Below are positions 42,610-62,968 of a stretch of 64,000 bases of DNA, in pieces; position 1 is the first letter of the stretch; each line of letters starts with the position of its first letter. Where the stretch lies: the NCBI GenBank assembly GCA_937872895.1, contig CALMUP010000001.1:1-64000 (forward strand), written 5' to 3'. This stretch comes from an uncultured Verrucomicrobiota bacterium (GTDB taxonomy: Bacteria; Verrucomicrobiota; Kiritimatiellia; CAIVKH01). The notes beneath the pieces were generated by a model. That model worked only from the letters and a program-made list of their open reading frames with translations, made no database searches and was not told the DNA's origin. The translations under genes were made by a program, and so were the position numbers.

Positions 42610-45600
42610 ATGTACTTAAAGCGCCTGGAAATCATCGGATTCAAGAGTTTTGCCGACAAGACCCGCCTGGAATTTGAACCGGGCATGACCTCGATCGTGG
42701 GGCCGAACGGCTGCGGCAAAAGCAACGTGAGCGACGCGATCCGGTGGGTGCTCGGCGAGCAGAGCGCGAAGGCGCTGCGCGGCGGCAAGATGGAGGACGT
42801 GATCTTCAACGGTACCGACAACTCCAAGCCGCTCGGCATGGCCGAAGTGAGCCTGACCCTGGCCGACTGCGAGGCGACCCTCGGCATGGAGTACAACGAG
42901 GTGACGGTGACCCGCCGCGTATTCCGTTCCGGCGAAGGCCAGTATTTCATCAACAAGGCCCCCTGCCGCCTGAAGGACATCCAGCGCCTGTTCATGGACA
43001 CCGGCGTCGGCACCAATTCCTACTCGATCATGGAGCAGGGCAAGATCGATCGCATTCTCAGCTCCCACCCCGAGGACCGCCGCGCGGTGTTCGAAGAGGC
43101 GAGCGGCATCACCAAGTTCAAGGCCGACAAGAAGGAAGCCTTGCGCAAGCTCGACCAGACCGAGGCCAACCTGCTCCGCCTCGACGACATCATCCGCGAA
43201 GTGAAGCGGCAGATCATCTCCCTGCAGCGCCAGGCCGGCAAGGCCCGCCGCTACCAGGAACTGCGCGACGAAGTGCGCGGCATCGAATTGTTCCACACCC
43301 GCGAGCGCCTGACCGCGCTCGACGCCGACATCAAGGCCCTCGAGGCCCGCCTCGCCGCGATCCGCGAGCAGGACGAAGCCGTCCGCCACGACATCGAGCA
43401 GGAGGAACAGGTCGCCACCCAGTTGCGCGAACAGCTCGACGCCATCGACCTCGAGATCAACCAGCTGATGGAACAGGGAATGCAGTCGAAGTCGGAACTG
43501 AACCGCCTGCGCGACCTGATCCGCACCAACGAGGAGCGCGTGGTCGAACTGCAGCAGTTGTCCGAACGCGACTCGCGCGACGCCGGCGAAGCCAAGGCCC
43601 GCCTGGAGCAACACATCGCCACCCGCACCGAGGAACAGCAGAAACATGCCACCGTCACCTCCCAGCGCGATGCGATGGAGAAGGAACTCGCCGAAAGCGT
43701 GCAGCGGCTCCAGCGCGACGAGAAGGCCGTGCAGGACACGAACCGGCAGAGCAACCAGTTGCGCTCGGAACAGATCGATGTCGAGTCCCGCCAGGCCCGC
43801 CTCCAGAACGAATTGACCGAGATCGACGCCGAGGAACGCAAGAACGACATCCGCCGCGAGCGGCTCTCCGCCGAACTGGGCGAATCGACCCGCGCCAGCG
43901 AGACCTTCAAGACCCGCCAGGCCGAGATGACCGCCCAACTGGCCTCGCTGCAAAGCGCCGTCGAGGAAGCGACCCGCGGGCTCGAGACCGCGAAGAACGC
44001 CAAGGCCGACCAGGCCGGTGCCATCGCGACCAGCCGCACCGAACTGAACAAGCTGCAACCCCAGGCCGCGGCGATCGACGCGAAGATCAACCTCCTTGCC
44101 GCGAGCCAGAAGGACCAGGAAGGCTTTCCCGAAGGCGCCCGTCGCATCCTCAGCCGCGATGCCGCCCTGCCGTACAAGCCCGAGGACGTGCTCGGCCCGC
44201 TGGCCGATCTCGTCCGCGCCGAAAACGGATACGAACGGGCCCTGGAGACGGTCATGCGTCCGCTGCTCGACTCGATCGTCGTGCGCCACGACGAGACCAT
44301 CGCCTATTTCGTCCGCGAGATCGAACGCCACGGATTCGGCTCGGTACGCCTGGTCTCGCTGCGCGGCCCGGATGCCGAGACCACGGTCCCGGCCGGCGCC
44401 GACCGCCTGATCGACCACGTGCGCTGCGCCGACGAGGTGAAGCCGCTGCTCGCCCGCCTGTTCGGCAACGTCATCGTCGTGGAATCGGGGGACCAATTGC
44501 CGCAAACCCCCGACCCGCGCCTGATCGCCTTGAGCCGCAACGGCGCCCTCGCCGCCGCCGGCCACGGCGAGTTCTGGAACCCGAAGAACCAGGCCACCAC
44601 CCCCCTCGCCCGCAGCCACATGCTCGCCGCGTGGAAAGAGGAAAGCGCCTCGATCAAGCAGAACATCGCCCGCGTCCAGCAGCAGCTCGCCGCCCTCCAG
44701 AAGGAGGAAGTGAACTTCGACCGCGCCATCGAGGAACGCCGCACCGCCCTCGACCAGAGCCGCCGCCAACTGAACCTCGCCCAGGGCGAAAGCCAGGTGG
44801 TCATCCAGCAGGCGAAACAGATGGCCCAGCGCGTGGAGACGATCAGCTTCGAGCTGCAGGCCCTCCAGTCGAGCAACAGCAACAGCGACGAACGCCGCGC
44901 CCGTATCCAGGGCCAGCTCGACCAGTACCGCGATCGCCTCGCCGAGATCCGCACCGGCATCGCCACCCAGACCAACACCCTGCGTGACCTCGAACAGGCC
45001 CGGCTGAACAGCCAGACCGAGACAACCGAACGCCGGGTACGCTTCTCCGAGCTGAAACAGACCGCCGACCACACCGCCTCGCGCATCGATCAACTCGGCG
45101 CGCGCATCCGCGAACTGGAGAGCCTGATCGATGAACGCACCCGCGGCGTGAACTCCTACCAGGAGCGCATGGGCAACCTGAACGGCGGCATCGCCGGCGC
45201 GAAGAAACAGATCGAGCCGGTCGAGTTGGCCATCGCCGAAAACGCCGCCGCCATCGAGACCGCCCGCACCCGCAAGGATGCCGCCCACAAGGAATTCAGC
45301 GCCCGCGAGCACGCCCTGCGCCAGAAGCGCCAGCAGCTCGAGGACATCCACAAGCGGCAGAGCCAGGGCGACATCGAACTCGCCCAGCAGCGCATGCGCA
45401 AGCAGAACCTGGTCGAGCGCGTCACCGGCGAGTACAAGATCACCGCCGAGGACGTGTACCAGGCGGCCGAACCGGCCTGGGAAAACGGCGAACGCCCGGC
45501 CGCGGAAATCGTCGAGGCCCGCATCGCCGAGATGCACGCCAAGATCGAAGCCATGGGCCCGGTCAACCTCGTCGCCATCGAGGAGCACGCGGAACTGGAG

Positions 45601-46227
45601 GAGCGCTACGCGTTCCTGACCGCGCAACAGACCGACCTGGTCAACGCCAAGACCCAGCTCGTGGACATGATCAGGCAGATCAACGCCACCACCACCGAAC
45701 TGTTCTCGAAGACCTTCAACCAGGTGAACGAGAACTTCATGAAGATGTTCACCCAGATGTTCGGCGGCGGCTCGGCCAAGCTCGTGCTGGTCGACGAAGG
45801 CGACGTGCTGGAGTCCGGTATCGAGATCATCGCCCGCCCCCCCGGCAAGAAGCTCCAGACCGTCTCGCTGCTCTCGGGCGGCGAACGCACGATGACCGCG
45901 GTGGCCCTGCTCTTCTCCCTCTACATGGTCAAGCCCAGCCCGTTCTGCGTGCTCGACGAGCTCGACGCCGCCCTCGACGACGCCAACATCGGCCGCTTCG
46001 TCAAGACCGTGCGTGGCTTCATCGACAAGTCCCAGTTCGTGGTCATCACCCACAACCGCCAGACCATCGCCGCCTCGCGGGCCATCTACGGCGTGACCAT
46101 GGAAAAACAGGGCATCTCGAAGATCATCTCGGTCAAGTTCTCCGACTACGAGAAGGAAGCCCCGCCCAGCCCGGCCCCTGCCGCCGGCTCCGAGGCCCCG
46201 CAGGAAGAGAAAGCCGAAGCGACCTGA
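42610..46227 (+). CDS. smc: Chromosome segregation protein SMC
   Basis: 1205 residues, the usual length. N-terminal Walker A GPNGCGKSNVSDAIRWVLGE, two long coiled coils (about 165-500 and 670-1010) and a hinge between them (PYKPEDVLGPLADLVRAENGYERALE). The C-terminal ABC half has signature LLSGGERTMTA and Walker B CVLDELDAALDDAN. It forms condensin with ScpA and ScpB, which are not in the window. A Pro/Ala/Glu-rich tail follows the head domain. The long antisense frame across it is a codon-bias shadow. Confidence 0.97.
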   Translation: MYLKRLEIIGFKSFADKTRLEFEPGMTSIVGPNGCGKSNVSDAIRWVLGEQSAKALRGGKMEDVIFNGTDNSKPLGMAEVSLTLADCEATLGMEYNEVTVTRRVFRSGEGQYFINKAPCRLKDIQRLFMDTGVGTNSYSIMEQGKIDRILSSHPEDRRAVFEEASGITKFKADKKEALRKLDQTEANLLRLDDIIREVKRQIISLQRQAGKARRYQELRDEVRGIELFHTRERLTALDADIKALEARLAAIREQDEAVRHDIEQEEQVATQLREQLDAIDLEINQLMEQGMQSKSELNRLRDLIRTNEERVVELQQLSERDSRDAGEAKARLEQHIATRTEEQQKHATVTSQRDAMEKELAESVQRLQRDEKAVQDTNRQSNQLRSEQIDVESRQARLQNELTEIDAEERKNDIRRERLSAELGESTRASETFKTRQAEMTAQLASLQSAVEEATRGLETAKNAKADQAGAIATSRTELNKLQPQAAAIDAKINLLAASQKDQEGFPEGARRILSRDAALPYKPEDVLGPLADLVRAENGYERALETVMRPLLDSIVVRHDETIAYFVREIERHGFGSVRLVSLRGPDAETTVPAGADRLIDHVRCADEVKPLLARLFGNVIVVESGDQLPQTPDPRLIALSRNGALAAAGHGEFWNPKNQATTPLARSHMLAAWKEESASIKQNIARVQQQLAALQKEEVNFDRAIEERRTALDQSRRQLNLAQGESQVVIQQAKQMAQRVETISFELQALQSSNSNSDERRARIQGQLDQYRDRLAEIRTGIATQTNTLRDLEQARLNSQTETTERRVRFSELKQTADHTASRIDQLGARIRELESLIDERTRGVNSYQERMGNLNGGIAGAKKQIEPVELAIAENAAAIETARTRKDAAHKEFSAREHALRQKRQQLEDIHKRQSQGDIELAQQRMRKQNLVERVTGEYKITAEDVYQAAEPAWENGERPAAEIVEARIAEMHAKIEAMGPVNLVAIEEHAELEERYAFLTAQQTDLVNAKTQLVDMIRQINATTTELFSKTFNQVNENFMKMFTQMFGGGSAKLVLVDEGDVLESGIEIIARPPGKKLQTVSLLSGGERTMTAVALLFSLYMVKPSPFCVLDELDAALDDANIGRFVKTVRGFIDKSQFVVITHNRQTIAASRAIYGVTMEKQGISKIISVKFSDYEKEAPPSPAPAAGSEAPQEEKAEAT

Positions 46228-47932: not shown

Positions 47933-48486
47933 CCCGCCCCCGCCGGACGGCCCGCGCGCGAACCCTCGACGTGCCACAAGACGAACACCGCCGCGCTCAA
48001 CACCATGACGCTCTGCCAGATCAAGCCGTGCGCGAGGTCGAACCATTCCGGTCGATGGATCACCACATGGAACATCGTCACGATGCGCAGCAGGTTCAGC
48101 ACGAAGATCAGCGCCGTGCCCAGCGCCAGTCCGCGCACCCGCCGACGCCACGGATCCGGCAGCACCAGCAACGCCGTGACCAGCAGCAACCACGCCTCGA
48201 CCCCGTCGCAACCGCGCCGGATCTCCATGATCACCCCCGGCGTGCTCAAGCTCGCCGTGTCGTACCACACCGGACGATCCGGCAACGTCAGCCGCGCCAG
48301 CCACGCCGCCGGCCGCACCTGGGCATGATGGATCAACACATCGCGGGTGAAGGCATAACTCGCGTTGTACGCGACCAGCGAGACCGCATACAGCCCCAGC
48401 CACAACCCCAGCCAAAGCAGGAAACGCCGCCGCCCGCCAGCCGGCGCGGCACGAACAGGGACCGGTGATGCCATCGACTCCGTCAC
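47929..48486 (-). CDS. Exosortase (probably XrtH type)
   Basis: 185 residues (GTG start at 48486; an internal ATG at 48474 is an alternative). The membrane cysteine protease/transpeptidase triad is visible in order: Cys in RRGCDGVEAW, Arg in FVLNLLRIV and His in FDLAHGLIWQ. Helices before and after each motif fit the exosortase/archaeosortase fold. These enzymes cut C-terminal sorting tags from exported proteins and couple them to envelope material. No protein with a PEP-CTERM or related tag is seen in this window, so the substrates lie elsewhere. Confidence 0.85.
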   Translation of the reverse strand: MTESMASPVPVRAAPAGGRRRFLLWLGLWLGLYAVSLVAYNASYAFTRDVLIHHAQVRPAAWLARLTLPDRPVWYDTASLSTPGVIMEIRRGCDGVEAWLLLVTALLVLPDPWRRRVRGLALGTALIFVLNLLRIVTMFHVVIHRPEWFDLAHGLIWQSVMVLSAAVFVLWHVEGSRAGRPAGAG

Positions 48487-48531
48487 CCCGCCATACTGTC
48501 AGCCTCCGCGCACCCCATCAACCATGAACCA

Positions 48532-48592
48532 TCCCCACTCCCATCCCCATCTCCATCTCCATCTCCATCCCCATCCCCATCCCCATCTTCCG
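48532..48592 (+). repeat. CCATCY hexanucleotide microsatellite
   Basis: About ten tandem units alternate between CCATCC-CC and CCATCT forms (a CATCYC hexamer) just upstream of the carbonic anhydrase gene. Such tracts can change length by slippage and could alter the spacing of upstream control sequences. Confidence 0.75.
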
Positions 48593-48670
48593 CTTCATTC
48601 TCTTTCCTCTCGCCTTCAAACGCCTTGCCCCCTATGTTCTGCGGCAAACTTGTTGTGGAGGCCGTTGTCT

Positions 48671-49465
48671 ATGAACGCTGGATCACGTTGGATGCTTGGA
48701 ATCGTTGCGCTGGTGTCGGGGGTGTTGGTGAGCGGTTGTTCCACCACGCCCCATCATTCCGCCGCACATTGGAGTTACGAGGGCGATACCGGACCTGAAC
48801 ATTGGGGTTCGCTGGATCCGGCCTACCACCTCTGCGCGACCGGCACCCGCCAATCCCCGATCAACCTCGATCCCTCGGCCACCACGAACCTTCCGGACAT
48901 CGTGTTCGCCTATGCGCCGTCGCCCTGGGTGCTAACCAACAACGGCCACACCATCCAGGCGACCCCCGCCCCCGGCTCGGCGATCCTGCTGGACGGCGAA
49001 CGCTTCGAACTCGTGCAATTCCATCTCCATGCCCCCAGCGAACACACCGTGGTCGGCCTCCCGGCCGCCGCGGAAATGCACTTCGTCCACCGGTCCCCCG
49101 ACGGACGCCTCGCCGTGCTCGGCGTCCTGCTCGTGGCGACCGACACGCCGCACCCCGACTACGCCGCCTTCTTCGACAACCTCCCCGCGAAGCCCGGTGC
49201 ATCGACCACCCTGGACGCCCCGCGCTCGCCGGAAAACCTGCTTCCGTCCGACCGCCGGACCATCCGCTACGACGGATCCCTCACCACCCCGCCCGGCACC
49301 GAAGGCGTGCGCTGGAACGTCTTCCCCACCCGCGTCGGGATCTCCGCCGGGCAACTCGCCGCCTTCACCGCGATCATCCCCCCGAACAACCGGCCCGTCC
49401 AACCCCGCAACGACCGCGAAATCCTGCTCGATGCCGCGATCGACGCGCCGGCCGCCGCCCCGTGA
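48671..49465 (+). CDS. Alpha-class carbonic anhydrase, lipoprotein
   Basis: 264 residues from the ATG at 48671. The signal peptide ends in VLVSGC, a lipobox, so the protein is anchored in the periplasm or outer membrane. HWSYEGDTGPEHW and RQSPINL are alpha-CA marks. The three zinc histidines are in FHLHAPSEH (HLH) and AEMHFVH, and the Thr gate is in YDGSLTTPPGTEGV. It interconverts CO2 and bicarbonate. It overlaps the MazG-like gene (GTGA). Confidence 0.93.
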   Translation: MNAGSRWMLGIVALVSGVLVSGCSTTPHHSAAHWSYEGDTGPEHWGSLDPAYHLCATGTRQSPINLDPSATTNLPDIVFAYAPSPWVLTNNGHTIQATPAPGSAILLDGERFELVQFHLHAPSEHTVVGLPAAAEMHFVHRSPDGRLAVLGVLLVATDTPHPDYAAFFDNLPAKPGASTTLDAPRSPENLLPSDRRTIRYDGSLTTPPGTEGVRWNVFPTRVGISAGQLAAFTAIIPPNNRPVQPRNDREILLDAAIDAPAAAP

Positions 49466-49797
49466 ACCTGAACACGCTGCGCGATGCGCTGCACCGGACC
49501 GCGCGCGACAAGGGCTGGTACGACCAGCCCGAGTCCGACGACGCGTTCATCACCCGGTTCGTCGCCAATATCCACGGCGAGGTCTCTGAACTCTGGGAAG
49601 CCCACCGCCGCGGTTCCCTGCACCAACCCTGTGACAAGGACGCCGCCCTGACCAACCTCGAGGAGGAGATGGCCGACATCCTGATCCGCACCCTCGATGC
49701 CTGCGGCCGCCTGGACATCGACATCGACCGAGCCGTCCGGATCAAGCACGCGTGCAACCAGGCACGCGCCTACCGCCACGGCGGCAAGAAGGCCTGA
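49462..49797 (+). CDS. MazG-like nucleotide pyrophosphohydrolase
   Basis: 111 residues starting at GTG 49462 within the carbonic anhydrase stop. The MazG metal motif is visible as EVSELWEAHRR followed ~25 residues later by EEEMADILIRTLD (ExxE...ExxD). Such small all-alpha NTP pyrophosphatases cleave non-canonical or stress nucleotides. It is the last gene before the repeat-rich accessory island. Confidence 0.85.
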   Translation: MNLNTLRDALHRTARDKGWYDQPESDDAFITRFVANIHGEVSELWEAHRRGSLHQPCDKDAALTNLEEEMADILIRTLDACGRLDIDIDRAVRIKHACNQARAYRHGGKKA

Positions 49798-49831
49798 CTG
49801 ATTCGCGGCAACCCGCCCCCACCGCGGACTC

Positions 49832-49884
49832 GCCCTGCATCCGGGCATCGAAATCCCGCATCGATTGCGCCAAGGTTAACGACC
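49832..49884 (+). repeat. 53-bp dispersed repeat, copy 1
   Basis: The segment beginning CTGCATCCGGGCATCGAAAT and ending at AACGACCACG recurs at about 50281-50333 with one or two changes. The flanking CCCACCGCGG sequences are also shared, so the unit is a duplicated intergenic module. Confidence 0.75.
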
Positions 49885-49968
49885 ACGTTCCCGCCCACAC
49901 ACCTAATCGCCCCCACCCTTACTCGGATACCCTTACCCGCCTACACCTACTCGCGCCAACGCCCCCCC

Positions 49969-50020
49969 TTGAACGTTGGAAGTTGGATGTTGAAAGTTGG
50001 AAGTTGAATGTTGAATGCAG
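49969..50020 (+). repeat. GTTGRAN heptad tract 1
   Basis: Six consecutive 7-bp units of the form GTTGGAA, GTTGGAT, GTTGAAA, GTTGGAA, GTTGAAT, GTTGAAT, preceded by TTGAAC. The following GCAGGCTCTTGCCCGCC stretch recurs at 61636. Related tracts lie at 50116, 61412, 61596 and 61743. Confidence 0.85.
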
Positions 50021-50115
50021 GCTCTTGCCCGCCAAAAGCGGCCCCACCTCCGCTCAACAGTCCGTGCTCGTAATCGCAATCCTAATCCTACTCGCGCTCC
50101 CGTTCCCTCGCCCCC

Positions 50116-50157
50116 TTGAACGTTGGAAGTTGGACGTTGAAAGTTGAACGTTGAACG
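50116..50157 (+). repeat. GTTGRAN heptad tract 2
   Basis: Units GTTGGAA, GTTGGAC, GTTGAAA, GTTGAAC, GTTGAAC after TTGAAC, again followed by a GCCCGCCAAA module. Between tracts 1 and 2 lies a unit (CTCAACAGTCCGTGCTCGTAATC...) that also recurs at about 61541 and 61673. Confidence 0.85.
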
Positions 50158-50280
50158 CTGCCCGCCAAAGGCGCACCCGCCTCCGGCACCCAACCCCCAA
50201 CGCGGTGAGGGCACCGCGTCTCCACCACCACACGACGGCCCCTCCCGATGGAGCCGCGGTGCCCCCACCGCGGTCACGCC

Positions 50281-50333
50281 CTGCATCCGGGCATCGAAAT
50301 CCCACATCGATTGCGCCAAGGTTAACGACCACG
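50281..50333 (+). repeat. 53-bp dispersed repeat, copy 2
   Basis: Second copy of the 49832-49884 unit. From here to the IS remnant the sequence is low-complexity C/A-rich with no gene; short ACCCGGATACCCTTACTCGCC phrases also repeat part of 49921-49955. Confidence 0.75.
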
Positions 50334-50477
50334 CACGACCACGTGCCCGCATTCACACACGTACCCGGATACCCTTACTCGCCTACACCCACTCGCACCC
50401 ACGTACCCGACCCCATTTCCACCCGAACCAACCGATTACGTCGCTCCATCAACCCATCGCCTTTCCGCGTCCGCCCC

Positions 50478-50591
50478 CTAACACCGATCACTGATCCCGG
50501 CCCGGCGGATCAAGTCCTTGAGCTCCGTGCCTGCTTCATGCTGCTTCGGCATCCCAATGATCTGCTCTTCGCTGTATCGCTTGCGCTTCAT
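50478..50591 (-). pseudogene. IS3-family transposase orfA remnant
   Basis: The minus-strand frame from the ATG at 50591 reads MKRKRYSEEQIIGMPKQHEAG, then LIRRAGISD, which is the N-terminus of IS3-family (IS2/IS407 group) OrfA helix-turn-helix proteins. It stops after 37 codons at TAG (50478-50480). A GGAGG Shine-Dalgarno sequence is kept. Only the first third of orfA remains, and no orfB is present. The remnant marks a past insertion at the island edge. Confidence 0.75.
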
Positions 50592-50926
50592 CTCGCCCTC
50601 CTGGGTTGTTCGTTTTACCCGGAAGGACTAACACATTAAACACTACAGTTTACGGGGTGCGTGCCACCGGCTTAATCAAGCGCCAATAGTACAGATGCCA
50701 GCGGCCGGGAGGCGGGAAAAATCCCCCGGGCCAGGCATCCGCCTGGGCTCAACTGGCAATGTTTACCAGCGGTCTCCGGAAAAGCAGATGCCGCCGCCCC
50801 TCTGGCTCGAACAACTCGCCATTCACTGCCACGCCCAAGGCCGGCGGGTGCAGCACGCAAATGATCACCCTTTCATAGGGCGACGCCCGATTGTCGCGAC
50901 ATGTCGTTTGTCATAGGATGCGATCC

Positions 50927-52030
50927 ATGAATATTGATCAAACCGTGGTTCGACACGCCTTGCCGGATGATGAACCGGGCTCTGGCGACACAGACTGGTT
51001 CTATCGTCAAACCCCGTTTGAACGGGAAGAAATCAAACACCTGGTTTCCTACAAGCGAAACATCCTTGGCATTCGCGAGGATGGTCGCTATCCAAAGAAG
51101 CCGACACTTACGTATCCGCACATTCTGCCTGATGGATACAAGACTGCTGCCTTTTGCCCCAATATCGCTGACCAAATTATTGCGCACCTGAAAGAAGAGG
51201 GTATTCAGGAACATACGGAACTCTTGAACCTCAAGAGTTCGCAGGCTGCTTGCTTGAATATTCTCTTTCCGCTTCGACTGAACAAAAGTCTGGCGGCGCG
51301 TGTTCTGCACAAACACCTGCCCGGACTTGATGTGATTTCTGACATTCAGTTTGAATACACCGGCCAGGATGAAGCACCAGGCGCTCGACTGGAGTGTACC
51401 GAGTGGCTCGGCGAACCGCCGAATGGTAAGCGTGGTCAATACCGCACCAGTATCGACGCGGCGATATTCTGGTCGGACACATCGTCCCGAGCACACATCA
51501 CGCTGGTTGAGTGGAAATACACCGAACGATCCTTTGGATCTTGTAGCGCTTTCGCTAACGCCAACGCCCTGGAGCAGGCCGCTTGCAAGTCATCGACGTA
51601 TAAAGACACCTGCTTGCTCGTGAACCATGGTCCGCGTCGAAATCGCCGCTACTGGGACCATCTCGACGCATCTGGCATCAAGCTCGAGAAAATGAAGGGA
51701 TTGTCCGGATGCCCGTTCCGGGGCCCTTTTTATCAACTGATGCGCCAGTTCCTGGTTGCCCAGTATCTTCGCAACAAGCATCCACAGACGATTGTTGATG
51801 TTTTGGCGATTCATTTTGCCAAGAACAAGGCGTTGAATGACGTTCCCAAGGAACTGAAACCGTTATGCCGGCCCGATCATTCGACCGTCATATCGGCATG
51901 GAATTCAACGCTGGCTGATGTTCCTGAGCTACGCTCGCTTCACATTGAAGACATCATGACGGAATTTGATGCGGCCTCTGAAACGGATACTGAATGGAGA
52001 TCCTTTATCCGTCAACGGTACCGCGTTTGA
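50927..52030 (+). CDS. PGN_0703-like putative restriction endonuclease
   Basis: 367 residues from the ATG at 50927, with AGGA at an 8-base spacing; earlier starts at 50891 or 50918 are possible. LLNLKSSQAACLNILFPL near residue 110 and a later PD-(D/E)xK-like core, SIDAAIFW...ITLVEWKYTE (Asp, then Glu-x-Lys), fit the PGN_0703 family of putative restriction enzymes. No methyltransferase is adjacent. GC content is lower than in the chromosome core. Nuclease function is predicted, not proven. Confidence 0.7.
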   Translation: MNIDQTVVRHALPDDEPGSGDTDWFYRQTPFEREEIKHLVSYKRNILGIREDGRYPKKPTLTYPHILPDGYKTAAFCPNIADQIIAHLKEEGIQEHTELLNLKSSQAACLNILFPLRLNKSLAARVLHKHLPGLDVISDIQFEYTGQDEAPGARLECTEWLGEPPNGKRGQYRTSIDAAIFWSDTSSRAHITLVEWKYTERSFGSCSAFANANALEQAACKSSTYKDTCLLVNHGPRRNRRYWDHLDASGIKLEKMKGLSGCPFRGPFYQLMRQFLVAQYLRNKHPQTIVDVLAIHFAKNKALNDVPKELKPLCRPDHSTVISAWNSTLADVPELRSLHIEDIMTEFDAASETDTEWRSFIRQRYRV

Positions 52031-52716
52031 GCCAAAAGCGGACTCGCCCTCGGGTGGCGGCCCTCGGCCTGGGGTTGGTCGCCGGATCCCGGTGGGCGGG
52101 ATGCTCGGCTCCACGGCCAGCCTGGGCCGGCTGGCCTACCGGGTCTCGCTGGACACTCGACCGCGGCGGCGCGGCACGAAATCGCGTTTCCCCCTGGCGG
52201 TTCTCCGAACCCCTCCCTTCGCCCCCTTCCAGATATTGTACTGGTCTCAGGGAACCCACCGGGGGCAACTTTCGACGAGAACAACGTAAGCACACAAAAC
52301 CCTCGCCGGCTGAGGCCGTCGATTCCTTGCTTTTTTTTGTGTGGTTCTCGGCCTTCGGCTTTCGCGCCTGATGCGCCGCCTGATCCACCCCCATGCCGGT
52401 CGCGAATATGTGAGCGCCCCTCAAGGGGCTCCGGCAAGCCTCCCGGCATCATGACCGGCTCGCGCCCTCGCACGGTCATTCCCGCCGGTCGCCCGCGGCC
52501 TTCGGGGTTTCGGCTCGACTCGTCTCGCACGAACTCCCCTTGACCGCTAAAGGGAAACCCGCGTCAGTTTCCCTCATCCTTCCCCTCATGGATCAAACAT
52601 TTTCCGATATCATTATGTTGAACACCTTGAACTCGATGCCTTCAGAAAAAACTGGTACGAAGTGCAATGAATTGCAACAGTCAGGGTGCTAAACACGCAA
52701 TGTATTCGCTCTATGA
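52031..52716. other. Intergenic GC-rich spacer
   Basis: No gene is supported in this ~690-bp stretch. It changes from GC-rich, possibly decayed coding sequence to AT-rich sequence after about 52590, the left edge of a compositionally different segment. No convincing promoter, RNA or repeat was recognised. Confidence 0.4.
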
Positions 52717-53589
52717 ATGGCAATCAATCTACTTAACACTGCAATGAACATTGATTTTGGAATAGTTACGAAATACCAAAGGGGTTTTGGTTTTGTTTCA
52801 CACACATTCCTTGATCCTGGCTTTCTTGACGCCGCCTTCCATTTAAGTGTTGTGCACAAAAGCCAGCCGATTATTGCCAAACTGCTTAGCACCAAGAAGG
52901 AAATCAATGTTTGTTTTTGGTATGAGTATAAAATTGAAGCAAGAGGATGCAATGTAATTTTAGTTTTAGAGGATGCTATAGCGCAAAAAATTAACCCTAA
53001 ACATTTAGCATCTCTAATCGACAAAACCATGAAACTATGGCCAATTGCATGGGGTTCTTTTTCTGAATTAGTAAAAAAAGCAACTTACGGCTTTTTAGAG
53101 CCTGATGAAGCAAGTCAATTGTCAATCTTGCTGAAGTTACTTGGCGCCGAGAAGCTAAAACGCAAAGAAGAGCTTGAAGAGGCTGAAAAATTACGCATTG
53201 AAGAGGCTGATTTGCTCAGATGGCAGAAGCAGTATAAGTCTGAACGAGCAGTCGAAGCAGCAAAACACAAAGAGTATACTGATCGCATGGCTGCTCAAAA
53301 AAAGATCGAAGATGATGAGTTTAAGCAATTACTTAACGAAATATCAGCGATGCACTTTACGCGTAGCAGTGAAGTTTCAGAGTACATAGTCCGTAACAAA
53401 CTCGGCTCAAAATATAAACATATTTCAGGCATACTAGAAATGGACCTTCATGGTCGGCGATGGAACTTCAACGGGGGGTTTTCACCAGAGGTGTACGCTC
53501 GATTATGCGAAGCACTTGGATTGGGCAATCAAGGATCGCAATCAACACCTGTGTCATTCACGCCGTATAAAGATCTATTTCAAAAGTGA
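52717..53589 (+). CDS. Protein with N-terminal cold-shock-like domain and coiled coil
   Basis: 290 residues (281 if the ATG at 52744 is used). The N-terminus GIVTKYQRGFGFVSH ... DAAFHLSVV has the RNP1 and RNP2 nucleic-acid-binding motifs of a cold-shock/OB-fold domain. Residues ~150-205 form a charged coiled coil (RKEELEEAEKLRIEEADLL...). The C-terminal ~70 residues (AMHFTRSSEVSEYIV...GRRWNFNGGFSPEVYARLCEALG) form a separate small domain. AT-rich, unlike its neighbours. RNA or ssDNA binding is likely; its biological role is unknown. Confidence 0.7.
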   Translation: MAINLLNTAMNIDFGIVTKYQRGFGFVSHTFLDPGFLDAAFHLSVVHKSQPIIAKLLSTKKEINVCFWYEYKIEARGCNVILVLEDAIAQKINPKHLASLIDKTMKLWPIAWGSFSELVKKATYGFLEPDEASQLSILLKLLGAEKLKRKEELEEAEKLRIEEADLLRWQKQYKSERAVEAAKHKEYTDRMAAQKKIEDDEFKQLLNEISAMHFTRSSEVSEYIVRNKLGSKYKHISGILEMDLHGRRWNFNGGFSPEVYARLCEALGLGNQGSQSTPVSFTPYKDLFQK

Positions 53590-53688
53590 CGTCCGCGTTC
53601 GACATGAATGCAGCCAGGTAATATGGCCTACTAACCCAATACGCAGTGCTTTCCTTGCCCGCCCCCTCCGCCGCCGTATCATCGCGGC

Positions 53689-54009
53689 ATGGATTCTGAG
53701 CCACTCACGTCCACCGAGCCTGTGGTTTCGTTGCTTCGCGGCGAAAACGGATGCTTTGTGCCTGGAAACCGTCCTCCTCCAGCCCAACCGGGCCGTGTCG
53801 GCGGCCGGGCCAAGGCGTTGCTGTTGCTCGACCGGATACTCTCCAAGGAGAAGCTGGGCGAGGAGGGCGCGATCCAATGGGTCAGGCTTTCAACTATGTT
53901 CCCCACGCCGGACAGCGGCTCATCCACGCCTCCGGTCATCAACGTTTCCGCGTCGTCTGTTGCGGACGACGCTGGGGAAAAACCCTCTGCCTTGCCGCCG
54001 AAATCCTAG
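53689..54009 (+). CDS. Possible small terminase subunit-like fragment
   Basis: 106-codon frame. Only the first ~65 codons (up to the terminase ATG at 53877) look protein-like: GGRAKALLLLDRILSKEKLGEEGA resembles phage small-terminase or packaging adaptor N-termini that precede Mu-type large terminases. The rest overlaps the terminase gene in another frame and is probably spurious, which suggests a truncated or frameshifted gene. Confidence 0.35.
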   Translation: MDSEPLTSTEPVVSLLRGENGCFVPGNRPPPAQPGRVGGRAKALLLLDRILSKEKLGEEGAIQWVRLSTMFPTPDSGSSTPPVINVSASSVADDAGEKPSALPPKS

Positions 54010-55121
54010 ACCGCGCCGGCGGGGAGGCGGCGGGCGATTACGCCTGGATTGCGCCGACCTACTTCATCGCCGAACGCGGGGTCGAGGCCTTGCGGGAGAT
54101 TGCCGGGGAGTTCGTCCGCTTCACCGGCCGGAATCCCATCCGGGCCGAGCTCGACGGCGCCTTCGGCACCTCGCGCATCCTGTTCCTCTCCGCCGACAAC
54201 CCGGAGTCGATCCTTGGTCTAGGCTTCCAGGGCATCGTGGTCGACGAGGCGGCCCGGATTCCGACGGACGTCTGGCACTACACCATCCGCCCCACCCTCG
54301 CCCAGACATTGGGCTGGGCCACGCTGATCTCGACTCCCAACGGCCGCGGCTGGTTCTACGACCTGCACACGCGGGGCAACGACCAGCAGGAGACGGACTA
54401 CCAGTCCTTCCACTTCGCCAGCAACACGAACCCCTACTTTCCGACCGAGGAATGGGAGGAGGCCAAGCGGACCATGCCGGCGGATGTTTTCCGACAGGAA
54501 TACATGGCCGAGTTCCTCGAGGACAGCGCCGGCGTCTTCCGCAACGTCGACGCCTGCCTACTCGCAGCTCCGCCCACACGCAGCGACGACGTAGCCATCG
54601 GCTGCGACCTCGCCAAACACACCGACCACACGGTCCTGATCGCCATGGACCGCAAGACCGGCCAGTGCCTCGACATGGAACGGTTCAACCACCTGGATTG
54701 GCCCATCCAGAAAGAACGGATTGTCGAGTTTACCCGCCGCCACAACGGCTTGCTGGTGATGGACGCCACCGGTATCGGCGATCCGGTCTACGACGACCTC
54801 CGCCACGTCCTGCCCAGGATCGAGCCGGTCAAGCTCACCAACCTATCCAAGGCCCAGTTGATTCAGCGCCTTGTGGTGGCCATCGAGCAGCGGCAGATCG
54901 TATGGCCCGCCGCCTGGTCAGTCGTGACCGACGAGCTAAAGCGTTATGAGTACGAGATTACCACCAACGGCTCGATCACCTACAACGCTCCAGTCGGTTA
55001 CCATGACGATTGCGTCATCGCCCTCTCCCTGGCCAACTCTGAGCGATTCCAGTTCATTTGGAGGGGCGAGGCGCGGGTGTTTGGCTCAAGAACGGTCTCC
55101 AGACAATTACTTTTGGGGTAG
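53877..55121 (+). CDS. Phage terminase large subunit (Mu gp28-like)
   Basis: 414 residues from the ATG at 53877. The ATPase domain has Walker A GRRWGKT (residues 30-36) and Walker B GIVVDEA (D123, E124), followed by the coupling motif TLISTPNGRG. The nuclease domain has acidic residues in AIGCDLAKHTDHTV, VMDATGIGDPVYDDL and GYHDDCVIAL. It would cut and package phage DNA. Only the terminase and a portal fragment remain of a morphogenesis module, so this is a prophage remnant. Confidence 0.88.
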   Translation: MGQAFNYVPHAGQRLIHASGHQRFRVVCCGRRWGKTLCLAAEILDRAGGEAAGDYAWIAPTYFIAERGVEALREIAGEFVRFTGRNPIRAELDGAFGTSRILFLSADNPESILGLGFQGIVVDEAARIPTDVWHYTIRPTLAQTLGWATLISTPNGRGWFYDLHTRGNDQQETDYQSFHFASNTNPYFPTEEWEEAKRTMPADVFRQEYMAEFLEDSAGVFRNVDACLLAAPPTRSDDVAIGCDLAKHTDHTVLIAMDRKTGQCLDMERFNHLDWPIQKERIVEFTRRHNGLLVMDATGIGDPVYDDLRHVLPRIEPVKLTNLSKAQLIQRLVVAIEQRQIVWPAAWSVVTDELKRYEYEITTNGSITYNAPVGYHDDCVIALSLANSERFQFIWRGEARVFGSRTVSRQLLLG

Positions 55122-55481
55122 AGGTTGTTTACGACCTGAGCACGCTCAGTGGACGCGGTCAGGTTTAGGGGGCAGATAGAATACTGCGAATGGAGGCCCG
55201 TCCTGTTCTCATTTTCAAGAATACCGAAACGGTTGCATTTCTAGTATGCAGTTGACAGGGCGGGCGGTTTCAGTCCACAAATGAGGCGTGATACAGTTTG
55301 GCCCCTACCCCAAACGCAGCAGCCGACGAAGCAGCCGGCCTGCGCATTCCTGTCTATTATACTTGTGTGCACATCTTTCTTCCGCATATCGTGTTTTCTC
55401 CCTTTTGAGACCATGAGCATTTACAACGGTTACAACTGGACATTGTCAAAAATTGTACACGGAATGCTAAAAGGTTAATGT
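55122..55481. other. Intergenic spacer between terminase and the inserted gene pair
   Basis: About 360 bp without a supported gene. Composition drops to AT-rich here, marking the left boundary of the inserted segment. TTGTCAAAAATTGTACACGGAA (about 55443-55464) is AT-rich promoter-like sequence, but no clean -35/-10 pair was found. Confidence 0.4.
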
Positions 55482-55667
55482 ATGAAAACTATCGATATCA
55501 GCGCTGGCCTGAACAACACTGGGTTTCGTCGGATGAGCGATACTTACGGCCCTGGTGTCGACAAGATTTCTCCGGATCCCGATAAGCGTCGCAAGGTTCA
55601 GTACAAATTTACCGGACGAACTATCAGCTTCGTCAAAGCCAATGGTGATCGCTTTTCATCGCGATGA
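55482..55667 (+). CDS. Possible small protein upstream of the gene pair
   Basis: 61 codons with an AAAGG Shine-Dalgarno-like sequence in front of the ATG. Highly charged (SPDPDKRRKVQYKFTGR), no recognised family. It lies 36 bp before the large gene, in the same direction, so it could be a third component or a leader peptide. It may also be a chance frame. Confidence 0.35.
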   Translation: MKTIDISAGLNNTGFRRMSDTYGPGVDKISPDPDKRRKVQYKFTGRTISFVKANGDRFSSR

Positions 55668-55703
55668 CCCGAGCGCAAGATTGTACTGTAAAAGTAGGCC
55701 GCC

Positions 55704-58700
55704 ATGGTTAGCCTACCTCCCCTGACAGAACTCGTCAGGATAAAATTCACAAAATCTGCGAACGGGATATTTCGGCCCGAGCAGAGTGACTCTGGCAAAT
55801 TGATAGTGCTGGGTTTCTTTGATCTCGTCGAGTTCTTCGTACGCCCGTTTATCTCGCCTCTTGTCGGCTCACCGTCAGGGCGAAACAAAAGATCGGTCCC
55901 ACTTTTCGACGATTCGCCTTATGATGTCCTTTCGACACTTTTGGATTCCAAAGGTAAAAAGACAGCGAAGAAAGATGCCACACCCTCGCCTTTAGAAATC
56001 CGAGTTCTGTCATGCCTTGGAACTAGCGAAGACTCTCATCGACTGAAGCACCAACTTGAGCGCGCCAAAGAACGCAAAAATGTCTGCGCCATCGTGCAAC
56101 TGACGCTGGGAGAATCGCATCGTGGCGCCCGCACTTATGAAGCAACCGCCCAATTACTAAAACATCTGCGCTCGTCAAACATACACGATTCAATATCTGA
56201 CTCGTGTATTTTCACGTGCCTGGATGCTCCCCATCTGGTCCTTGTTATGTGGGCAGATAAAGTGCGAACTATCTTCGACGCCATGGTTCGGTTGCGCTGC
56301 CTGCGTTCTGGTTCTGCCAAAGACAAGAAGCCGGTATTTGGAAATACTGTTACGACTCTGTGCGTAAAAGACTACGAACCTCTCGCCAAGAGCCTCACCA
56401 CCAAAGAGGTTGTAACTATGAGGCTGAAGGTGTCGCCTAAGCTCAACAATGAATTTCTGGGGCTTTCAAAAAGATTTTCCAGCAACTCGTCATCAGGTTC
56501 CTCACTGCGTTATGGACCTCACCTCACTTTCGGGTTCTACGACCAGGTATTGATTCCGCCCAATTCGCGAGTGGCAGATGCGTATAAGCTCATGTTGGCG
56601 AGGCAAAATAAAACTGCATGGGACGCCTCCACAACAATCTATACGCACCCAGACGCCGACATCAATACTAACCCTGTCGACCTTAACCTATCCTTTTCCT
56701 GCAGACCCTATGAGCTTGAATCACCAGGCGACTTCGATCTTCGTGAACTTTTGTTAGGAAATGCTAAAAAATACTCTGGTGCTAGCGGGAGGAGGCAACT
56801 ACGGGACTATCTGTCATGCCTTAACTATGAATTACTCCGAGAATGCCAACAGTTTACATCATTGCTAAACGCAATGTCTGACGACACAGACTACGTGCCG
56901 GGAAGGTATCAGGTAAAAGAGGTGGCAAGGCAGTTCTTTCGCCACTTGGGTGACAAAATTCGCCAGCATCTCGACTCCTGTCAACATATCGAATACGGCC
57001 GCGATACCGATAGACCCACCGAATTCCTTTTGCAGCAGTCCGACTATTTGAAATTTGTCAGTATCATGCACCGGGCTCTTGAAGCGAGGATGAGTGCATC
57101 GGTTCAAGTCCACGGACGCAAGATCGTTACATCAAGCCGTAGTTCGTTCCTCAAGGTAATTGCCGCTATTCAGACATTTTCCGACCTATTCCAACTATAC
57201 ATGTCGCGCTACGGATGCATTGGTTCATATCAGTTTCACAACGTCATTCTTGTGGAACCAATAGATCATTCGCAATGGAAGACGGTAGTTCCCCCTGAAG
57301 ATCTAAAGAGCCGCATTACGTTCAGCGAGACTCATATTAACCGCAATTCACTGGGTCATTTGGGCGTGGCGGCTATATCTGGCTTACATGAAATGAGCCA
57401 AAATGCACTAATGCGAATACTTAGGCAGCCAAGCTACACAAGCCGACTGTTCAGCAAATACGTACTGAATCGCCTTGTGGAAGAACTCTCCACCAGCGAC
57501 GGGACTATTTACAGCAAGCGTGGTCGAATGCTCGGTCAAGAGGAAGCAGCATGTTTGAGAATAAAGTGGGGGCAAGCATGTGCAAAATACTTTGCGGGTG
57601 ATCCTGTGGGACGGTATTTGGAGTTTTTCTCACACCTAGCCAAATATCATGGCCAACCGCACTTCGATCTCTATTTGCATGTTCAGAATGCACTAGTTGC
57701 AGGGCTTCCTTCGACAACCAAAAAAAAGCTTAAACAGACTAATGCTGCCAAGTCATACCTTGGCAGTTCAATGGGTAGAGTCAAAAACAGAATCAATTCT
57801 CTAACGACACTCAAACTTGCGGAAATGTGTGTTGCGATAGATACGGAAGAGTTTTTATGGCAGCAGGAATTGGTAGGAGATGGGTACGGTTGGCTGCGTG
57901 AGATACTCTTGACTAAACGGATCGAGATCGAAACACAGGAGGGCATTTCACCTTCGGACAGCCAGTTTAGACTGAGCCGCGATGTTTATAGCAAAATCGC
58001 AGGAACAGAGTTAAACATCTCGGAAATTGCCAAATCGTGCTTCACAAAGACACTATTGAAATTTTTCCCAAAGGGAAGTATTCCGTTAGACGCCCTGTGG
58101 AGCGTTGAAGGTTTTAGTAGTTTCTACCCCAAGCAGCGGGATTCAAGTGATGGAATAAGCCCTGGCAAGCTCGCCGACATAATTGCTAACTACGACTATT
58201 CTAATACATATCTTGCACAAACATCACCGAGCAAGATGACAAACCAGCCCGACCTCCCGACAGCAATTGCGGAGTTTTTAGATACGCCATCCTATAATGA
58301 TTTAGCCGTAGCATTTCATGAACTCTTACCGCATTTACGCTTACTGTTGTATGAAGCGCTTCGTGACACTTTTAGGTCGAACAGAAGTAATCATCCCGAG
58401 GATTTGATGTCTTTCCTTGATGCGCAAGCCGCGATAGCAGCGTCACTCAATATGATGACGGAACAACGGCTATGCTTTAGGGAGGAGATAGAGTTGCTCT
58501 CGGCGGCTGGAATACTACTTTTGTTTTCGGACTCTGATGAGAAAGCTCTACGCGAGCAAATTGCGATATGCGCACGTTTTTCCCTAAGCTTTCACTTGGT
58601 TTCAAAGAATCGCGAATCTGCGGATCAATTGCTGCGCAATTGCCGTCGCTGGCTACTCATATCTGTTGTCCGCGTAACTAAAGCCAGAAGAGGAAGCTGT

Positions 58701-59240
58701 TCCGCGCTGATGAACTTATGGTTGAATGACGCAAAGCATATTGAGAATTGCTTGGGCGATACAGTAAATTTAGTTCTCGACATCTTTCAGCGAACAACTG
58801 AGAGTCTTGTTAATATGGCTCGAAGCCAAGCCCAAGACGGCGATGTTTATTTGTTCAGTCGACGCGTACTTCACATTTATGATCATCTGTTTGTTCATTC
58901 ACGCAGCGAACTCCGCTCGAACTTGATGTCAACCGACGCGCTGCATCACATTGCGTTGCTGGCGGACTACTACGACACTTACACCGACAGCGCACGAATG
59001 AACGAGGATTCCCTAGGTGAAGTCGACACCGATATATTGCGAGACTTCTTGTGTGCCGTATGCTCATGCACGTTTGCAAGCGAAAAAGAGCAAAAGCAAA
59101 ACACATCAAAAACAGCGGACTTGATACTGCGCCTGTGGTCCACACAGTTTCTGCTGCCGGGCCTACGGGAAAATTTAAATGACATCAATACGGCGCGGGA
59201 ATTTAACGATCTCATATCTCTAAAGCAAAACTATGCTTAA
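55704..59240 (+). CDS. Unknown 1178-residue protein, first gene of a two-gene candidate system
   Basis: 1178 residues, no recognised family over its whole length and no membrane helices that stand out. The N-terminal ~230 residues look like a separate alpha/beta region (VCAIVQLTLG...HLVLVMWADKVRTIFDAMVRLR). The middle and C-terminal parts are mostly helical, with no Walker, TIR, CARF or nuclease motif visible. LHEMSQ at 561-566 resembles but does not fit a zincin HExxH. The gene overlaps the cyclase-like gene by 8 bases, so the products are probably made together. Composition is more AT-rich than the chromosome, consistent with transfer. It may be the effector or regulator of the pair. Confidence 0.85.
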   Translation: MVSLPPLTELVRIKFTKSANGIFRPEQSDSGKLIVLGFFDLVEFFVRPFISPLVGSPSGRNKRSVPLFDDSPYDVLSTLLDSKGKKTAKKDATPSPLEIRVLSCLGTSEDSHRLKHQLERAKERKNVCAIVQLTLGESHRGARTYEATAQLLKHLRSSNIHDSISDSCIFTCLDAPHLVLVMWADKVRTIFDAMVRLRCLRSGSAKDKKPVFGNTVTTLCVKDYEPLAKSLTTKEVVTMRLKVSPKLNNEFLGLSKRFSSNSSSGSSLRYGPHLTFGFYDQVLIPPNSRVADAYKLMLARQNKTAWDASTTIYTHPDADINTNPVDLNLSFSCRPYELESPGDFDLRELLLGNAKKYSGASGRRQLRDYLSCLNYELLRECQQFTSLLNAMSDDTDYVPGRYQVKEVARQFFRHLGDKIRQHLDSCQHIEYGRDTDRPTEFLLQQSDYLKFVSIMHRALEARMSASVQVHGRKIVTSSRSSFLKVIAAIQTFSDLFQLYMSRYGCIGSYQFHNVILVEPIDHSQWKTVVPPEDLKSRITFSETHINRNSLGHLGVAAISGLHEMSQNALMRILRQPSYTSRLFSKYVLNRLVEELSTSDGTIYSKRGRMLGQEEAACLRIKWGQACAKYFAGDPVGRYLEFFSHLAKYHGQPHFDLYLHVQNALVAGLPSTTKKKLKQTNAAKSYLGSSMGRVKNRINSLTTLKLAEMCVAIDTEEFLWQQELVGDGYGWLREILLTKRIEIETQEGISPSDSQFRLSRDVYSKIAGTELNISEIAKSCFTKTLLKFFPKGSIPLDALWSVEGFSSFYPKQRDSSDGISPGKLADIIANYDYSNTYLAQTSPSKMTNQPDLPTAIAEFLDTPSYNDLAVAFHELLPHLRLLLYEALRDTFRSNRSNHPEDLMSFLDAQAAIAASLNMMTEQRLCFREEIELLSAAGILLLFSDSDEKALREQIAICARFSLSFHLVSKNRESADQLLRNCRRWLLISVVRVTKARRGSCSALMNLWLNDAKHIENCLGDTVNLVLDIFQRTTESLVNMARSQAQDGDVYLFSRRVLHIYDHLFVHSRSELRSNLMSTDALHHIALLADYYDTYTDSARMNEDSLGEVDTDILRDFLCAVCSCTFASEKEQKQNTSKTADLILRLWSTQFLLPGLRENLNDINTAREFNDLISLKQNYA

Positions 59241-60774
59241 GACTATAGAGAAGCTAATTGCGGATGAGTGCAAAGACCTTCTTCCGAAGTTATTGCCTCT
59301 TGAAGACACCGACTTGCCAGCGCCCAACACCAATGATGTGGGGCGGCGTGGGCCTGACGGAGTCATGTATTCTTTGCCAGAACTGCAGGCATCGTTGAGC
59401 GTCTTCGAGAAATTCGGCCGATACTTCCCAGATCTTATAGCAGACGAATGGGCACATAGAGTTGTTCTGAAGTTCCTACTGTCTGAGAAGTCTCGTTACC
59501 ATCGCGATTCATGCTGCATCTGTGTTGCTCCTCCATTAAAAACTCCGGTCCATCGAGAGCAGTCGTTGCTACTTCACGCCCGCGCCAAAGACGCTGGATT
59601 CGCCTGCGGTATCCTGGTCGGAGAACTGAGCATGACCGATGGATTTATGTGCATCGCCTTCGTCAGCAGTCATAATGATCGCGACACGCTTGCTCACCAG
59701 GTGTTTTCTTTCCTTCGCGCCCTGAAAGATGACGCTAAAGAGCTGGGAATTCCGCTATTCGATCCTGCCGAAAAAACTACTACCGGACTAGAAATTGGCG
59801 TCGCATTCGGTCCTATGTCGTTTGAGGAAGATGATTCAACGTCGGTCAATGAAGTGCTCATAACTCGACGCGTCGGCGCAGCTGACGGATCGACGGCCAA
59901 CAAAGCAGGCCACCTTGCAAAGAGAAAATTGAGTGGAATTCTAGACGAGAATGCAATGAAGATTTGCCCTGGCTCATTGCGCTTCTGCTACCGAGAGAAC
60001 GGTATTAACCTCCCAAAGTACTTCTTGGATGTTTCCAAATTGCATCGTAAGCAAAAATTCATCGATGGCACAGATACTGTCTGCTCTTTACTCGCTGCCG
60101 ACCTTTCAAACCTATGCAGTAATTGGCCATCACGTCCGCGTGGAAGGTCAATGAGTACTGAGGAGTACGCAATACTGGCCGTCGATATCGACATTGGCAA
60201 CAACTCAATGGCCAGCAGTATCGTTCCGTCTTCCCTCAATACTTTCAAGCATCGTTTGCGCGAACAGGTTCAGTCACTCTTGGACCTTGGAGTCATCATC
60301 GGTCCGTGGGCCGGTGATGGAGTTACTCTCGTGCGAGTTATCTCACCGGGCGAGCAAGCCTATTCAGCGCATGTTCGTAGTGCACTTTTAATGGCGCTTT
60401 TAAAGATTGTTGATGATGCGGCTGCGTTTGACCACGGCGATCCTTATTATGTACGCGTTGGCGTAGGCTATTCTAATGTTCGCTGCTCGGTCAGGAATCT
60501 TTTTGCAGGAAACGCTACAGACAACCCCGAAGTTCAACGACTACGAACGACAGCACTTGACATGGCATACAAACTTCAAAATTCGAAGATGTTGAAGAAA
60601 CTTAATCCCGGTTTAGATTTTTTAGCCTGCGCTTGTGATCTCATTCAACAGACAGGTAGTTCGGAAAACGATTCTATATATAATACTATTACTTCAAGAC
60701 TTCATAAGGTTTCAATCGAGGATGGCCTGAAGTGCTACTACATAACTGCAGATAACAGAACTTCTAAACTTTGA
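59233..60774 (+). CDS. Class III nucleotide-cyclase-like protein with two cyclase-type halves
   Basis: 513 residues. The C-terminal half (about 310-455) follows the class III adenylate/guanylate cyclase pattern. The strand AILAVDIDIG carries the first metal Asp (D318), IIGPWAGDGVTLV carries the second (D362) exactly 44 residues later, then YVRVGVGYS, then ALDMAYKLQNS at the place of the VNxAxR transition-state motif (here Asp443/Lys447 instead of Asn/Arg). The N-terminal half (about 90-235) looks like a degenerate copy: MTDGFMCIAF, LEIGVAFGP and TANKAGHLAK. The substituted residues leave base specificity and activity open. The pair with the 1178-residue protein recalls Pycsar-type signalling but matches no described system that I recognise. 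Confidence 0.7.
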   Translation: MLKTIEKLIADECKDLLPKLLPLEDTDLPAPNTNDVGRRGPDGVMYSLPELQASLSVFEKFGRYFPDLIADEWAHRVVLKFLLSEKSRYHRDSCCICVAPPLKTPVHREQSLLLHARAKDAGFACGILVGELSMTDGFMCIAFVSSHNDRDTLAHQVFSFLRALKDDAKELGIPLFDPAEKTTTGLEIGVAFGPMSFEEDDSTSVNEVLITRRVGAADGSTANKAGHLAKRKLSGILDENAMKICPGSLRFCYRENGINLPKYFLDVSKLHRKQKFIDGTDTVCSLLAADLSNLCSNWPSRPRGRSMSTEEYAILAVDIDIGNNSMASSIVPSSLNTFKHRLREQVQSLLDLGVIIGPWAGDGVTLVRVISPGEQAYSAHVRSALLMALLKIVDDAAAFDHGDPYYVRVGVGYSNVRCSVRNLFAGNATDNPEVQRLRTTALDMAYKLQNSKMLKKLNPGLDFLACACDLIQQTGSSENDSIYNTITSRLHKVSIEDGLKCYYITADNRTSKL

Positions 60775-60893
60775 TCGCAGAACGATTAGTCTTTCAGTTT
60801 TCTAAATGCGGAACTTAGTCGCGGAGAAGCAGTAGAACCGCCTCACCAGTGCTTTCATTGCCCCTCCCACCTGCATGGTGTATGCCGCCATGC

Positions 60894-61372
60894 ATGGCCA
60901 ATTACCGTCCACAACCGAACTGGCGCGACCATTACAACCCGCTGCGCGGGTTGACGATGGCGCGTATTGTCGCCATGGAGGAGGCGGCCAACCGCGGCGA
61001 CCTGGCCGATCTGCAGTGGTTCTGGTTTCATATGCTCCAGACCGACGTGACGGTGGCCTCGGCGGTGGCGAAACGTCTCTCCCACATCGATTCGCTCGAC
61101 TGGGAGATCCGGACCATTGAGACGGCCGACCCGGTGCTCGCCCAGGAACAGGCGGCGGTGCTCCGCTATGCCTATGACCGGATCGAGAACCTGAAGGAGG
61201 CGGCCGGAAAACTGGCCTTCGCCTCGTTTACGGGCTTCACTGCCTTGGAAAAGATCACGACCGGTTACGGCCCCCTTGTTACCCGGTTAGATTACATCCC
61301 GTGCTGGCATTGGGTCCACGACAAAAAGACCGGTCGCTGGTACTTCAACCCCGAAGCCCGGCCCGGCCTCAT
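60894..61372 (+). pseudogene. DUF935 (Mu gp29-like) portal protein, 5' fragment
   Basis: About 160 codons from the ATG at 60894 (a GTG at 60849 is in frame). NWRDHYNPLRGLTMARIVAMEE and ADLQWFWFHMLQTDVTVASAVAKR are the start of DUF935 portal proteins of Mu-like phages. Intact members are roughly 400-500 residues. The homology ends at WYFNPEARPG, and the frame runs into the GTTGRAN repeat block, so the 3' two-thirds is missing. Normally it follows the terminase gene directly; here the cyclase gene pair lies between. Confidence 0.8.
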
Positions 61373-61411
61373 CCCCATAACCAAACACCCATACTCGCCC
61401 CCAAGTCCCCC

Positions 61412-61785: not shown

Positions 61786-61856
61786 TCTCTTCCCGCCTCG
61801 CCTCGCCATGGACAAACGACCGTGAAACGCGATAATGCGGGGCATCGAGGAACACG

Positions 61857-62786: not shown

Positions 62787-62968
62787 CCGAACATCCGCCG
62801 CGTTCTTCCACCTCGGTGGTTTAGCCACCCGGGCAGAAAACATAATAGCGCAGGAAGGGAGATGAAGTATTGGTGGCTCAAGGAAGAATAGCTTTTCTAT
62901 CACGATTAACCGTTCGCCGAACAAAGCTCCGGTCAGCGACCATTTTAGCGCCATCCGTTCTGGTGCCA

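Follow-up and report, generated by a model that had tools for sequence, protein, structure and literature searches.

Introduction

The combination of a cold-shock domain (CSD) with a coiled coil is a known theme among the CoCoNuT defence proteins, as presented in the accessible part of PMC11090510, and a fusion of TPR with a CSD is described for TALON/TOTE-type systems in the accessible part of PMC12458937. Here, we analyzed a gene within a 64,000-nucleotide stretch of DNA from an uncultured Verrucomicrobiota bacterium (the whole stretch is hereafter called the window), whose product joins a cold-shock-like N-terminus to a long charged helix and a conserved C-terminal domain. The C-terminal domain, and not the cold-shock part, is a widespread, defence-linked module, and this is our main finding. 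The first-pass annotation of this DNA, which was drawn to the cold-shock part, overlooked the C-terminal domain as such a module.

Results

A foreign gene in an AT-rich patch

The gene lies on the plus strand in an open reading frame at 52717–53589, which has 290 codons counted from its first ATG. Because the relatives from Shewanella start at the residue that aligns with the ATG at 52744, the product is probably the protein of 281 residues encoded by 52744–53589. The first-pass annotation took the low GC content as a mark of foreign origin, and the composition agrees with this view. The reading frame has a GC content of 40.0% and a GC3 of 0.36, compared with a GC3 of 0.90 in a host gene at 42610–46227 (smc-like by eye), and the AT-rich patch around it extends over about 52.6–53.65 kb. 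A search of its own genome with the gene returned only the gene itself, and in a set of 97 genomes, made up of its own and 96 from relatives, the protein was likewise found in its own alone. In 387 genomes of the phylum (own included), the sole match outside the own genome was a weak one over 43 residues (E 0.0087), which we judged to be chance, and the C-terminal domain profile A5 recovered only the own copy from 332 genomes of the phylum. The contrast in GC3, together with the near-absence from relatives and from the phylum genomes, therefore identifies the gene as foreign to its host. Only short imperfect repeats were found flanking the gene.

The surroundings hold further features. A large terminase subunit (53751–55121) and a short portal-like piece (Portal_Mu, 60849–61430) form an apparent prophage remnant around the island. 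Between them, at 55704–60774, lie two overlapping low-GC genes encoding proteins of 1178 and 513 residues, neither of which had a Pfam match above cut-off or any PHROG or PADLOC match. Stretches of the 513-residue protein recall nucleotide-cyclase domains by eye, a resemblance that a PDB search did not support. Farther along, a cluster at 61857–63938 that runs beyond the end of the window encodes an HNH_2 nuclease, Vsr, an EcoRII-C endonuclease and a C5 methylase, and looks like a type II restriction-modification (R-M) system. At 5371–7485, within a stretch of about 50% GC, there is a defence-type OLD/GajA-like ATPase-nuclease (PADLOC Old, 314.9 bits).

A divergent cold-shock-like region and a long charged helix

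The cold-shock-like region is encoded by 52744–52989 on the plus strand and carries the motifs RGFGFV (RNP1-like) and FHLS (RNP2-like). A profile built from three relatives without the window sequence matched window residues 3–68 at 22.5 bits, compared with a best score of 9.0 bits in 2000 shuffles of the window protein. PF00313 gave nothing at E≤1 against the window protein, both in the Pfam scan and in the scan of its own genome, and it remained below threshold in the two Shewanella relatives and in a further relative, L021 (14.5–16.8 bits vs the curated 27). With a four-row profile that included the window protein, E. coli CspA came first in the PDB at E 0.043, which alone is not significant, and it was closely followed by RRM proteins sharing the RGFGF string. 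RGFGF and FH are invariant across all four CSD-like rows, and the four-row profile aligns both to CspA. As seen by eye, the RNP2 motif of the window protein lacks one aromatic residue, with A replacing the F of CspA. In the predicted full model, confidence was low over residues 1–60, where the five-stranded OB barrel would be located, with block mean pLDDT values of 22–52. The motifs and the profile thus speak for the cold-shock N-terminus proposed in the first pass, whereas Pfam does not recognize the domain; judged from the motifs and the profile match, the region is real but divergent. The N-terminus alone found no match among plasmids. PF00313 matches nothing in the host genome, which is 95% complete; in 10 of 14 control genomes the family is present.

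An extra segment follows at 52990–53100 (plus strand), with two helices predicted at low confidence, and aligns mostly to gaps in the Shewanella relative. The next part, at 53101–53346 on the same strand, is a long charged helix according to the model and the composition: residues 120–201 of 281 form one helix in the predicted full model (mean pLDDT 54.2), and charged residues make up 46% of residues 131–208. The heptad signal in residues 131–208 is weak, with I, L, M, F or V at 36% of a/d positions vs 16% elsewhere, as raw frequencies without a significance test. Because of this weak signal and the 46% of charged residues, the middle region could also be a single alpha helix. What had been called a long coiled coil is hence borne out as one long predicted helix, and is predicted to be either a coiled coil or a single charged helix.

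No named family covers the C-terminal domain in the members scanned

The C-terminal domain is encoded by 53296–53586 on the plus strand, as delimited by profile and model; the long helix ends within the stretch that forms the first helix of the domain. It is a conserved unit of roughly 70–95 residues. A profile of five relatives that excluded the window protein matched window residues 187–278 at 93.3 bits, and 2000 shuffles of the window protein scored at most 8.4 bits. Together with the profile match of the cold-shock-like region and the predicted helix, this match confirms the three-part layout recognized in the first pass.

We found no convincing named family over the domain in Pfam (11 of the 13 members scanned), PHROGs (10 of 13) or NCBIfam (4 of 13), and no convincing PADLOC model match to it (11 of 13). 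Several sub-threshold matches were rejected: phrog_2979 on window residues 115–241 (E 0.0027), phrog_12357 on L021 residues 216–288 (E 0.006), phrog_28511 on L011 (E 0.0074), NF041844 on the helix of L006 (E 0.0011), and PbeA on L020 (E 0.0037), the last being the sole weak PADLOC match inside the domain. Sequence searches of the PDB with the profiles A5 and A6 returned nothing convincing. In word searches of the literature, which easily miss an unnamed domain, we recognized no paper describing it. The term "REase-ARP", the name of the nuclease family upstream in the window, was not met in such a search, and "cold shock" was not found in the accessible part of PMC13092281.

The domain is predicted to fold as helix-helix-short helix-beta hairpin-helix with moderate confidence (pLDDT 67.9, pTM 0.60). 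The order helix-helix-beta hairpin-helix might suggest a winged-helix-like DNA-binding domain, in which case the family would control the transcription of mobile-element or defence operons, in the manner of the C proteins that regulate R-M genes. VIA-align, with 85 chains aligned to the C-terminal model, gave three matches with Z≥2; two of these, PadR Rv3488 (the best, Z 3.1) and 1t6s (Z 2.1), are presumably winged-helix proteins, and the existence of stand-alone forms of the domain with 81–118 residues would also suit a regulator. However, Z-scores of 2–3 are within noise according to VIA-align's own note, Foldseek-type searches with the C-terminal model returned neither solved nor viral structures at E≤0.001, and a fusion to a cold-shock-like part and a long helix would be unusual for such regulators. 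We consider a regulatory family unlikely.

Relatives occur with different N-termini and on different replicons

The first-pass annotation proposed a search for homologues of the same layout and a look at their neighbours. Such homologues exist: the arrangement of CSD, helix and C-terminal domain recurs in a protein of 224 residues on the Shewanella baltica plasmid pS22301 (L002) and in one of 227 residues on the chromosome of Shewanella sp. ANA-3 (L006). The 328-residue protein of L021 is another in which a CSD, a linker and the C-terminal domain follow one another. With the window protein, these are the four of the 13 members examined in which the cold-shock part was recognized. The C-terminal domain stands alone in L003 (Acinetobacter), L020, L011 (Yersinia) and L012 (Aliivibrio), and it follows other N-termini in L019, L022, L023, L024 and L028. 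The reading frame in L003 (3610–3966), which encodes the C-terminal domain alone on the Acinetobacter plasmid, corresponds to no gene in the PLSDB table.

The domain falls into two sub-groups, A (window-like) and B, which are homologous (hhalign 96.5%, E 7e-10). Sub-group B has the signature HHEVN..IT..W..F..IRS.NDHG. In a tree of 13 rows, the split between A and B had a support of 99/100; the tree leaves 8 of its 10 inner branches open, and its bootstrap was still unsettled. CSD fusions are found on both the A and the B sides, and the branch starred in the tree forces at least two changes.

A search of plasmids with the Shewanella protein matched 43 records, comprising itself, 41 from Vibrio and one from Acinetobacter, and the coverage was at least 80% in 42 of the 43. 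According to the search listing, from which alone they are known, the Vibrio records have 80–90% identity to the Shewanella protein, and one of those listed is annotated "cold shock domain-containing protein". Among genomes, relatives were sparse. At E≤0.001, 4 of 369 genomes matched, two of which we judged to be chance, and a further search at the same threshold matched 6 of 394, one being the ANA-3 genome again; the sub-group B profile at E≤0.0001 matched 2 of 398, one already known. Two scans of genome contigs yielded none and one locus, respectively, and the DNA of one relative had no match in E. coli genomes. A tblastn search of 50,697 phage records with the window protein and its relatives from L028 and the Shewanella plasmid detected no relative, and neither did a scan of viral contigs with the window protein, A2 and the Shewanella relative, where single proteins reach close relatives only. 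For sub-group B, the search among viruses covered phage records. Weak matches in L004, L009 and L010, the latter two both interrupted by an internal stop, were dropped after examination, and L013, on a Pseudomonas plasmid, is a short remnant only.

Neighbouring genes are repeatedly of defence type

We examined the neighbours in 13 loci, which include neither the 41 Vibrio records nor the L013 remnant. The loci are not all independent because the proteins of L002 and L006 are near-identical. As to the second half of the first-pass proposal, the surroundings in most loci seen were accessory rather than housekeeping. As a rule, accessory islands carry many defence genes. In 6 of the 13 loci, a restriction or candidate-defence model recognizes the adjacent same-strand gene, a frequency that, without a matched control, indicates enrichment and does not measure it. 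The kinds of system are unrelated. In L019, HsdS is located 42 bp upstream and PDC-S11 25 bp downstream; hsdR was not identified in the part of this locus examined. In L023, the C-terminal part of an HsdR that is split by insertion-sequence-like genes ends 3 bp upstream, and in L024 a NERD+UvrD gene begins 2 bp downstream. PDC-S06 precedes the gene by 570 bp in L022, and PDC-M49B followed by PDC-M49A lies 178 bp upstream in L028.

The sixth is the window, where a PD-(D/E)xK restriction endonuclease of the REase-ARP family (PF22558, Pfam E 8.7e-37) is encoded upstream on the plus strand at 50891–52030, with 686 bp between it and the first ATG. The interval between the two genes starts with a GC-rich, apparently non-coding stretch (52031–52600, plus strand), bases 10–510 of which (52040–52540) form a 0.5-kb element with a second copy of 71% identity on contig 35 of the same genome. 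Because this repeated element occupies the gap, co-transcription of the two genes is doubtful, and among the six model-backed loci the window makes the weakest case.

Three further loci are suggestive. The gene in ANA-3 is preceded by a gene for 549 residues with RNYFAHH, which is HEPN-like by eye and has no library match. The one on pS22301 is preceded by a gene for 257 residues with an RNRGIGH motif, likewise HEPN-like by eye, and a gene about 1.6 kb upstream has a weak AbiU2 match below the cut-off (E 0.028). In L021, the preceding gene for 198 residues is PD-(D/E)xK-like by eye with no match in PADLOC; HNH and ankyrin genes lie within 2.2 kb according to Pfam, the HNH gene (PF01844) being 1.3 kb downstream.

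The remaining four loci have no adjacent defence gene. L020 adjoins an H-NS gene. The plasmids L003 (4.0 kb) and L011 (1.4 kb) carry little besides the gene. L012 has an annotated endonuclease, of a secreted type by eye, 0.8 kb away on the opposite strand; its N6-methylase/specificity gene is more distant, at 5.4 kb. These four loci, together with the cold-shock-like motifs, could be taken to mean that the window gene is ordinary RNA-chaperone-like cargo, a chance passenger of an accessory region with no link to defence. The cold-shock part, however, was recognized in a minority of the members examined, whereas the C-terminal domain persists, and the adjacency to unrelated defence-type genes is repeated. 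We regard chance cargo as improbable.

The carriers lend themselves to another interpretation. They include the Yersinia plasmid of 1.4 kb with just one other annotated gene, the mobilizable Acinetobacter plasmid of 4 kb, the conjugative Shewanella plasmid and the 41 Vibrio plasmid records, so the protein might be a plasmid or mobile-element factor, serving in anti-restriction, maintenance or as a replication aid, and present in restriction operons to restrain or counter them. The copies on genome contigs that lie only 2–3 bases from HsdR and NERD+UvrD genes argue against such a factor, as does the lack of a convincing named-family match among the members scanned, and we find it quite unlikely.

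Discussion

Relatives of the C-terminal domain thus repeatedly have immediate neighbours of restriction or candidate-defence type, and of unrelated kinds. We tentatively favour, at somewhat less than an even chance, the reading that the window gene was acquired horizontally and that its product is an accessory subunit of a restriction-type defence system, with a tail that docks to or controls an effector and a cold-shock part for the sensing of single-stranded nucleic acid. The C-terminal domain might act together with an adjoining nuclease/ATPase complex, as a docking or control module, and the variable N-termini might be its input modules. The cold-shock part of the window protein could bind single-stranded RNA or DNA exposed during infection, and the long helix might provide reach or dimerization. 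Sensing of phage RNA, as suggested in the first-pass annotation, is conjecture. The nearest candidate partner in the window would be the upstream REase-ARP nuclease; a partnership between the two is only a guess, because of the repeated element between their genes.

A more general proposal is that the C-terminal domain could be an undescribed mobile adaptor common to Type I R-M, NERD+UvrD, PDC-S06, PDC-M49 and REase-ARP systems, by which interchangeable inputs, such as a CSD sensing single strands, would be plugged into different nuclease or ATPase effectors. We hold this proposal to be doubtful. If the domain is common to unrelated defence operons, it would mark a shared regulation or sensing among systems that are now treated separately. 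It may be an unrecognized building block of bacterial immunity, with about half of the examined relatives adjoining antiviral defence genes, and it could serve as bait for further defence genes. An orphan hypothetical protein in the window thereby becomes a testable candidate.

Among known proteins, CspA and the other PF00313 proteins share with the window protein the G-x-[VI] start, the RGFGF motif and the FH motif. In contrast to them, the window protein falls under the Pfam cut-off, adds the long helix and the C-terminal domain, and belongs to a family found in accessory contexts; the Shewanella forms also have a longer loop. The PADLOC model CSD_V, which we take to represent the cold-shock protein of Type V retrons, is another CSD protein of a candidate defence system. 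It matched the Shewanella relative weakly (E 0.043) and had no match to the window protein at E≤0.1. The retron partner, a reverse transcriptase, had no match in the seven window proteins scanned (50891–62786), and no Rfam family reached its gathering score in 48000–64000, Rfam being without some retron RNAs.

The Type I CnuB/CnuC proteins of CoCoNuT systems, which are predicted to target RNA, combine a CSD-like OB fold with a coiled coil according to the accessible part of PMC11090510, a combination like the one predicted here; the C-terminal domain of the window protein differs from theirs. For the partners of the CoCoNuT and TOTE systems, the same seven window proteins had no Pfam match to a McrB-like GTPase or McrC, and no match to the TOTE partners TPR and TBP. 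The TOTE/TALON systems, as far as the accessible part of PMC12458937 describes them, resemble the window in having a CSD joined to a helical part and PD-(D/E)xK nucleases, which are encoded in the operons of these systems.
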